Of a stretch of DNA of 54,146 nucleotides, positions 45,848 through 47,545 are shown piece by piece. Numbering within the stretch: the first letter of the stretch is position 1; the number at the start of each line of letters is the position of its first letter. This DNA is from Candidatus Shapirobacteria bacterium. GTDB taxonomy: Bacteria; Patescibacteriota; Microgenomatia; UBA12405; UBA6130. A program made the translations under genes and the position numbers. The stretch spans positions 1 through 54,146 of the forward strand of contig JALWDZ010000005.1 of assembly GCA_027039485.1 (NCBI GenBank). Direction: 5' to 3'. Below the pieces are notes generated by a model that was not told where the DNA came from, ran no database searches, and worked only from the letters and a program-made list of their open reading frames with translations.

Positions 45848-47545
45848 AAAGGAGGTGATCCATCCCGACCTTCCAGTCGGGATACCTTGTTACGACTTAG
45901 CCCTCATCGCTGGGTTTGCCTTCGTCCCTCTCAAGGAGAGCCTTCGGGCACCCCCAACTTTGCTGACTTGACGGGCAGTGTGTGCAAGAGGCGAGAACGT
46001 ATTCACCGGGGCCTGCTGATCCCCGATTACTACCAATTCCGCGTTCATGCAGGCGAGTTGCAGCCTGCAATCCCCACTGAGAAGCCGTTTTTGGGATTAG
46101 CTCCGCCTCGCGGCTTGGCAACCCATTGTCGGCTCCATTGTAGGATGTGTGTAGCCCTGGACGTAAGCGACATGCTGACTTGACGTCATCCCCGCCTTCC
46201 TCCCCGCCCTTTCTGCCCACGAGAACTGTTTCTCTAACATCCTCTTGAGCAAAAAGGGCGGGGCTGTCTCCTGTGACACGAGTAACACAGGACAGGGGTT
46301 GCGCTCGTTACCCCACTGAAGGGAACACCTCACGGCACGAGCTGACGACAGCCATGCATCAGCTGTCCCGCCTTTTCTACCTTACGATAGACCCTTTCTC
46401 CGTTTCCGGAGCAGGAAAAAGCGGGATGTCAAGCCCAGGTAAGGTTCATCGCTTCGTATCGAATTGAACCACATGCTCCACTGGTTGTGCGCCTCCCCGC
46501 CAATTCGTTTGAGTTTCAGCCTTGCGGCCGTACTCCCCAGGCGGTCCGCTTAACGGGTTACCTACGACACCCCAGTATAAACCAGGGCATCTAGCGGACA
46601 TCGTTTACGGCTAGGACTACCCGGGTCTCTAATCCGGTTTGCTCCCCTAGCTTTCGTCCTTGAGCGTCGGTAGAATCCTGGCCACCTGCCTTCGCCCTCG
46701 GTGTTCCTTACCATATCCACGGATTTCACCCCTACATGGTAAGTTCCAGTGGCTCCGAATCCACCCTAGCCTCTCAGTATCCAACCCCTTTCTCCGGTTG
46801 GGCCGGAGTCTTTGAAGTCGGACTTAAGAGGCCGCCTACGGGCCCTTTACGCCCAGTAAATCCGGGTAACGCTTGCACCCTACGTATTACCGCGACTGCT
46901 GGCACGTAGTTAGTAGGTGCTAGACCTCGTGCTGCGCACGAGGCCGCGGTTTACAACCCGAAGGCCTTCATCCCGCACGCGGCGTCGCTGCGTCAGGCTT
47001 TCGCCCATTGCGCAAGATTCCTGGCTGCTGCCTCCCGTAGGAGTAGGGCCCGTGTCTCAGTGCCCTTGTGGGGGGCCACCCTCTCAGGTCCCCTACCCGT
47101 CGTTGCCTTGGTAGGCCGTTACCCTACCAACAAGCTGATGGGCCGCACGCCCCTCCCAAAGCGGGCAGTTACGCCCTTTACCCCAAAGCTTCGCTTTGGG
47201 GAAATCCAAAATTCTAAATCCGAAATCCTAAACAATATCTAAATTCAAATGACCAAATGACCAAAACAAAGAAGACGACAAGGATGTTTTGAACATTTGG
47301 ATTTTGGTCATTTGAACATTGTTTAGGAATTAGGATTTTGTGATTCGAATTTCCCACAAGGCGAAGCCTTGGGGGCTATCCAGGATTACCTCCGATTTCT
47401 CGAAGCTATCCTTGACTTTGGGGTAGGTTCGTACGTGTTACTCACCCGTTCGCCGCTCCCCGACGTAACGTCGGGGCGCTCGACTTGCATGCCTAAGGCG
47501 CGCCGCCAGCGTTCACCCTGAGCCACGATCAAACTCTCAGCTCAA
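45848..47545 (-). rRNA. rrs: 16S ribosomal RNA (with 195-nt insertion at 47181-47375)
   Basis: AAGGAGGTGATCC at the 3' end, TACCTTGTTACGACTT, GACGTCATCCCCGCCTTCC, GGACTACCCGGGTCTCTAATCC, TTACCGCGACTGCTGGCAC, CTGCTGCCTCCCGTAGGAGT, CTGAGCCACGATCAAACTCT at the 5' end (reverse-complement order). Confidence 0.97.
47181..47375. repeat. Repeat locus R5: inverted-repeat insertion within the 16S V2/h10 region
   Basis: Arms 47181-47266 and 47286-47375 are imperfect reverse complements; inner sequence matches R1/R2/R3 intergenic units (AAATCCTAAACAA, CCAAATGACCAAAAC). Confidence 0.87.

Follow-up and report, generated by a model that had tools for sequence, protein, structure and literature searches.

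Intervening sequences (IVSs) are extra segments of bacterial rRNA genes that are known in Coxiella, Salmonella, Leptospira and Campylobacter. Some of them lie in the 16S rRNA gene and some encode a protein, and their origin, usually ascribed to horizontal transfer, is an old open question. Another known group consists of dispersed palindromes, such as REP/BIME, ERIC and the Rickettsia palindromic elements, which are mostly intergenic; the Rickettsia elements also enter genes. In 23S rRNA, IVSs replace the loops of helices 9, 25 and 45 and are excised by RNase III without ligation (PMC4990558). In CPR bacteria, Tsurumaki et al. (2024) reported that 48% of the 16S and 82% of the 23S rRNA genes contain inserts of 100 bp or more; inserts that are neither introns nor ORF-containing are mostly shorter than 200 bp and were left uncharacterised, with some suggested to be IVSs, and the words 'repeat' and 'inverted' are absent from the main text (PMC11270868). 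A literature search yielded no paper linking dispersed repeats to IVSs, and since most subscription journals were outside the reach of this search, the novelty of such a link is not certain.

The stretch of DNA analysed here, referred to as the window, comprises 54,146 nucleotides from a Candidatus Shapirobacteria bacterium with a 695-kb draft genome of 27 contigs. It contains the only 16S rRNA gene of this genome, which carries an excess of 174 nt at E. coli position ~182. The most likely function of this insert is that of an rRNA IVS, with a long stem that would be cut without ligation or, failing that, would be tolerated in the form of a rod. On balance, an IVS is favoured whose body copies the dispersed palindromic repeat of the genome and whose rod would be cut by RNase III, after which the core would be degraded and the rRNA fragments retained. 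The first-pass annotation, made from the sequence, had recognized the insert and given its limits correctly (47181-47375, the extended h9 region) but had assigned it to V2/h10; alignment with E. coli and relatives places it in the terminal loop of h9. Without the insert ~1.52 kb remains, the normal 16S that had been expected. In RNA sense, the h9 region reads GGATAG-CCCCCAAGGCTTCGCCTTGTGGG-(151-nt core)-CCCCAAAGCGAAGCTTTGGGG-TAAAGG, with boundary hairpins H1 and H2 on the two sides of the core (Table 1). The insert RNA is predicted to fold into one rod of -90.6 kcal/mol (z = -10.4, equalled by none of 200 shuffles), which agrees with the long inverted-repeat stem described earlier, and in this rod the GC hairpins H1 and H2 pair with each other, including their loops TTC and GAA. 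The insert has no ORF of at least 80 aa and encodes no S23/IVP protein. CPR rRNA genes often contain introns (PMC11270868), and a self-splicing group I or II intron that is joined exactly after transcription was also considered. This explanation is highly improbable: the Rfam scan of the window listed only the 16S rRNA and one tRNA and gave no group I or II intron match, the 195-nt element is palindromic and without an ORF, and the same repeat is found genome-wide outside rRNA.

Table 1. Positions in the window of the 16S rRNA gene, the parts of its h9 insert and related dispersed copies.
Feature	Position	Strand	Basis
16S rRNA gene with one large h9 insert	45848..47544	-	RF00177 full-length match (1-1533, 1363 bits) and alignment
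H1, 5' boundary hairpin, RNA sense CCCCCAAGGC UUC GCCUUGUGGG; 5' half continues h9	47353..47375	-	Sequence; layout shared with 36 rRNA inserts
Core, AT-rich imperfect palindrome of 151 nt; belongs to the dispersed family	47202..47352	-	Own-genome copies to E 1.9e-40, 83-89% identity
H2, 3' boundary hairpin, RNA sense CCCCAAAGC GAA GCUUUGGGG; 3' half continues h9	47181..47201	-	Sequence; pairs with H1 in the predicted rod
Dispersed copy, palindrome half (R2 of the first-pass annotation), 89% to the 16S core	22795..22864		BLAST
Dispersed copy, second arm of the intergenic element at 22795..22864	22550..22616		BLAST
Dispersed intergenic copy, partial	3723..3800		BLAST
Dispersed intergenic copy, partial	35158..35243		Sequence comparison

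A 200-mer around the 16S insert gave 122 BLAST matches in the genome, many of which arise because both arms of a single copy are counted on each strand. Full-length matches reached E values down to 1.9e-40 with 78-85% identity, and in global alignments 15 full-length non-rRNA copies were 83-89% identical to the 16S core at the aligned positions. The match to 22797-22851 that had been noticed by eye is real (57 nt at 93%), and many further copies exist, as the genome search proposed at that time now confirms. The earlier claim that the insert belongs to a dispersed repeat family holds for the 151-nt AT-rich core and fails for the two GC hairpins at its boundary: the widest span of any match to the 200-mer is positions 26-183, which leaves the hairpins outside the repeat proper, and the intergenic copies either lack them or have other palindromes in their place. 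Copies outside rRNA are mostly intergenic, and among the 27 whose coding context was checked, 25 are overlapped by no ORF of at least 110 aa and two by reading frames of 160-174 codons. Intergenic copies often adjoin other GC-rich palindromes, for example CCCCGACGTTACGTCGGGG, and the native h6 hairpin of the 16S in the window is this same palindrome. At two loci of the genome (L018 and L022), the small GC-rich palindromes GCCAGCTGGCGG and CCTGCCTGCGCAGGCAGG are located symmetrically in the two arms of the large palindrome, which gives the impression of palindromes nested inside palindromes. The window also contains a second, low-complexity repeat family of the TTCCTAGCTCCTAGTTCC type (~36495-36760, 50004-50165 and 52433-52824), and a 134-nt inverted pair, 50004-50137/52433-52566, is 84% complementary.

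The 23S rRNA gene of the same genome (contig C8, L085) measures 4097 nt against a model of 2925 positions. Copies of the core are located at E. coli ~1887 and ~2131 (87% and 85% identity with the 16S core, respectively), and an additional repeat-like insert lies at E. coli ~140-165. At E. coli ~1363, the gene contains an insert in which CCCCGCCCTTTCT/AGAAAGGGCGGGG arms enclose the ORF of a small GIY-YIG protein; this insert is also present in G001, a genome of the same genus. The 16S and 23S rRNA genes lie on separate contigs with no obvious linkage; a tRNA precedes the 23S, and a weakly scoring 5S of 149 nt follows it (120-position model), which may itself contain a small insert.

In relatives, the h9 site is either empty or occupied by a different core. 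The same-genus genome G002 has a short, empty and unrelated h9 hairpin, and G003, from the same family, has UCCC-UUCG-GGGG without an insert. Palindromic inserts are found in h9 of G009, G010, G006 and G034, with cores that differ from that of the window; in G009, which belongs to another family, H1 and H2 are nearly those of the window and the core has diverged. The same sequence is thus not present at this site in all relatives, a pattern that had been named as evidence against a repeat-derived insert. As in known IVSs, the insert occupies a variable rRNA helix tip, the h9 loop, and is absent from close relatives, G002 and G003 having short hairpins. The 16S of G002 contains a ~455-nt insert in h6 (L033) with a 23S_rRNA_IVP reading frame that is broken by an in-frame stop. 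These observations also bear on the assembly, since repeats can cause misjoins in a draft of 27 contigs and a repeat from elsewhere could have been joined into the 16S contig by mistake. Such an artefact is hardly credible: the insert sits exactly in the h9 loop between symmetric H1 and H2, in four independent assemblies (G009, G010, G006 and G034) this helix also contains an insert, and the 23S on another contig holds further copies.

The layout H1-core-H2 is shared by 36 inserts in the 16S and 23S rRNA genes of CPR genomes in a hand-curated catalogue. In 33 of them, the boundaries are 17-nt hairpins, CTYGTnn-nnn-nnACRAG (H1) GAAATTCC ... GGATTTT CTCGCnn-nnn-nnGCGAG (H2), with small deviations; the h9 inserts of the window and of G009 and one 23S insert have the common layout with another stem sequence. 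Several loci in the catalogue were recruited by the H2 pattern, so the conservation of H2 is partly ascertained; H1 is absent from that pattern. Some of the 23S inserts lie at the known IVS helices 9, 25 and 45 (E. coli ~140-175, ~533-552 and ~1142-1183), and in the 16S the helices h6 and h9 are used. As expected of IVSs, the ends are predicted to pair into a long stem, and a continuous rod was predicted in 34 of 35 related inserts. H1 and H2 were therefore rejected as stable separate hairpins, and as such they would be only transient. Across 31 distinct modules, hairpin pairing was observed in 96% of the cells and rod pairing in 91%, both above all 500 shuffles and all slid controls. The loops of H1 and H2, which can pair only with each other, have two-sided changes in 16, 3 and 12 sequences; given the four-fold symmetry of the element, covariation of this kind could be produced by RNA-level selection and by templated inverted duplication alike. 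At two positions of the rod, 28 and 24 of the 31 modules have an A-C mismatch or are unpaired in another way. The A of the rod A-C mismatch has its partner within H1, which would be expected if a separate H1 hairpin is also formed, perhaps in the course of transcription.

A duplex as long as this rod is a typical RNase III substrate, and an RNase III gene is present in the genome. Since the 16S rRNA gene is single-copy, the ribosome must tolerate the insert, whether cut or kept, and the insert could also be transcribed and kept, giving a mature 16S with a long, uncut, double-stranded expansion of h9 that projects from the ribosome. This is a possible but clearly less probable explanation. The predicted rod is continuous with h9, and the covariation of H1 and H2, loops included, would fit a rod that is kept in the mature RNA; on the other hand, the genome encodes RNase III, and 23S inserts of like build are known to be excised (PMC4990558). 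For the favoured IVS, it is the layout together with the RNase III gene that points to cutting.

The association with structured RNA genes was examined in genome-wide scans. The exact pattern GGATTTTCTCGC-N7-GCGAGG was found at 22 loci in 84,980 species genomes, for which our own estimate of the chance expectation for 18 fixed bases is ~7.5 matches. Twelve of these loci lie within CPR 16S or 23S rRNA genes, where all 15 matches are in sense orientation. One more is an H1-core-H2 element in an RNase P RNA gene of a Ca. Liptonbacteria genome (L093, 5180-5440); this gene is matched by RF00010 with E = 3.6e-14 and 50 bits, under the gathering score of 100 bits, and the conserved 5' part of RNase P RNA, GAGGAAAGTCCG, is directly upstream of H1. 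No RNA-gene match was obtained for the eight of the other nine loci that were scanned with Rfam (L088, 213 nt, was left out). A covariance model of the 3' hairpin matched 57 of 281 Microgenomatia genomes. Of 66 checked matches, 48 are in or beside rRNA in sense orientation, one (L156) was additionally identified as 23S by Rfam, four are antisense, in 23S or the 23S-5S spacer, ten are an unrelated hairpin family and three have no assignment. A few elements lie just beyond the mature 16S or 23S ends. The recurrent hairpin TTTTTTGCGCGCGCGATTTTCTCGCCCTTCGGGCGAG, caught by this model at ten non-rRNA Microgenomatia loci, was excluded as unrelated. A recurrent hairpin TATTTTTTGCGCGCGCGATTTTCTCGCCCTTCGGGCGAG was recorded outside rRNA in Microgenomatia at L148, L151, L154, L155, L157, L159, L165, L173, L179 and L182, with no Rfam match among those scanned.

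Similarity between cores tracks the genome (0 of 2000 permutations as extreme), an effect that may come partly from shared composition, and does not track the rRNA site (615 of 2000 permutations). In the Shapirobacteria genome G010, the 23S cores share 77-98% identity with the 16S core. Contig C39 of this genome, which carries no rRNA, has a copy that matches the 16S core at 139 of 144 positions (97%), lacks H1 and H2 and reaches into the 3' end of an ORF of 504 aa. Its near identity and missing hairpins suggest a recent copying event between an rRNA locus and a locus outside rRNA, in either direction, that involved only the core. Together with the grouping of cores by genome, this indicates copying of cores between rRNA genes and intergenic DNA, and the mobility suspected in the first-pass annotation, or else conversion, gains support from the same copy. 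As to what could move them, the genome has three PF05635 genes and G002 has the decayed IVP ORF, but none of the palindromic inserts was found to encode an IVP, and IVP-encoded mobility was rejected. A Y1 transposase was likewise not retained as the mover: two Y1_Tnp genes are present, and the one inspected has no repeat directly beside it. More broadly, the repeats could be MITE- or REP-type elements moved by a DNA enzyme, for example the Y1 transposases, with the rRNA copies as ordinary insertions in tolerant loops that have no role at the RNA level. The palindromes dispersed in intergenic DNA, the two Y1_Tnp genes and the near-identical rRNA and non-rRNA copies in G010 would fit this explanation. 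It is nevertheless unlikely, as every exact-pattern rRNA copy is in sense and has a boundary that is asymmetric and specific to RNA genes, H1 is an inverted and not a direct copy of H2, so that the two form no target-site duplication, and no repeat lies directly beside the inspected Y1 gene. It overlaps with the favoured IVS explanation on origin and differs from it on processing.

In the favoured explanation, copying or gene conversion would have exchanged the core between intergenic DNA and rRNA genes, and the core would persist in the rRNA gene because a hairpin tip tolerates a palindrome. The transcript would fold into a long rod that continues h9, and the RNase III of the genome would cut this rod. 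The core would then be degraded, H1 and H2 would cap the new 3' and 5' ends, and the ribosome and the base of h9 would hold the two 16S fragments together. Selection for RNA pairing of the rod would be expected to give more G-U than A-C in the cores; the excess seen, 117 to 80 among related sequences, is weak, and RNA-level selection on the cores was rejected as a reading of it. More tentatively, selfish or domesticated palindromic elements may colonise the hairpin tips of structured RNA genes in CPR bacteria (16S, 23S and RNase P RNA), in sense orientation, with a conserved two-hairpin boundary and with interchangeable cores from dispersed intergenic repeats, by insertion or selection at the RNA level.

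Compared with the described systems, the CPR inserts resemble bacterial IVSs in that they replace an rRNA hairpin loop, have ends that pair into a long stem and, for some 23S members, occupy known IVS helices. They differ in that the body of the insert belongs to a repeat family dispersed in its own genome and that a common two-hairpin boundary recurs at many sites, including 16S h6/h9 and once RNase P RNA; also, unlike some IVSs, the 16S insert of the window has no IVP ORF. The IVP insert of G002 is different from the palindromic inserts in its helix, its ends and its coding capacity. With the short CPR rRNA insertions of Tsurumaki et al. (2024), the inserts share the host group, the genes, the stem-loop tops, the length (mostly <200 bp) and the lack of an intron match or ORF, and the shared boundary and the link to dispersed repeats go beyond that description. 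In general description they are like REP/BIME, ERIC and the Rickettsia elements, as dispersed, mostly intergenic palindromes, and unlike them the CPR copies lie in 16S and 23S rRNA genes within a boundary specific to RNA genes.

Most short rRNA inserts of CPR bacteria are listed as uncharacterised, and the shared boundary and exchanged core offer a possible source for them, define a family, provide a model for searches and make it possible to test processing in rRNA genes that are single-copy. The inserts may interfere with length filters for 16S, with V2 primers and with alignments in surveys of CPR bacteria. The presence of related inserts in 16S and 23S and, in one case, RNase P RNA suggests a source for unexplained extra pieces of bacterial rRNA.
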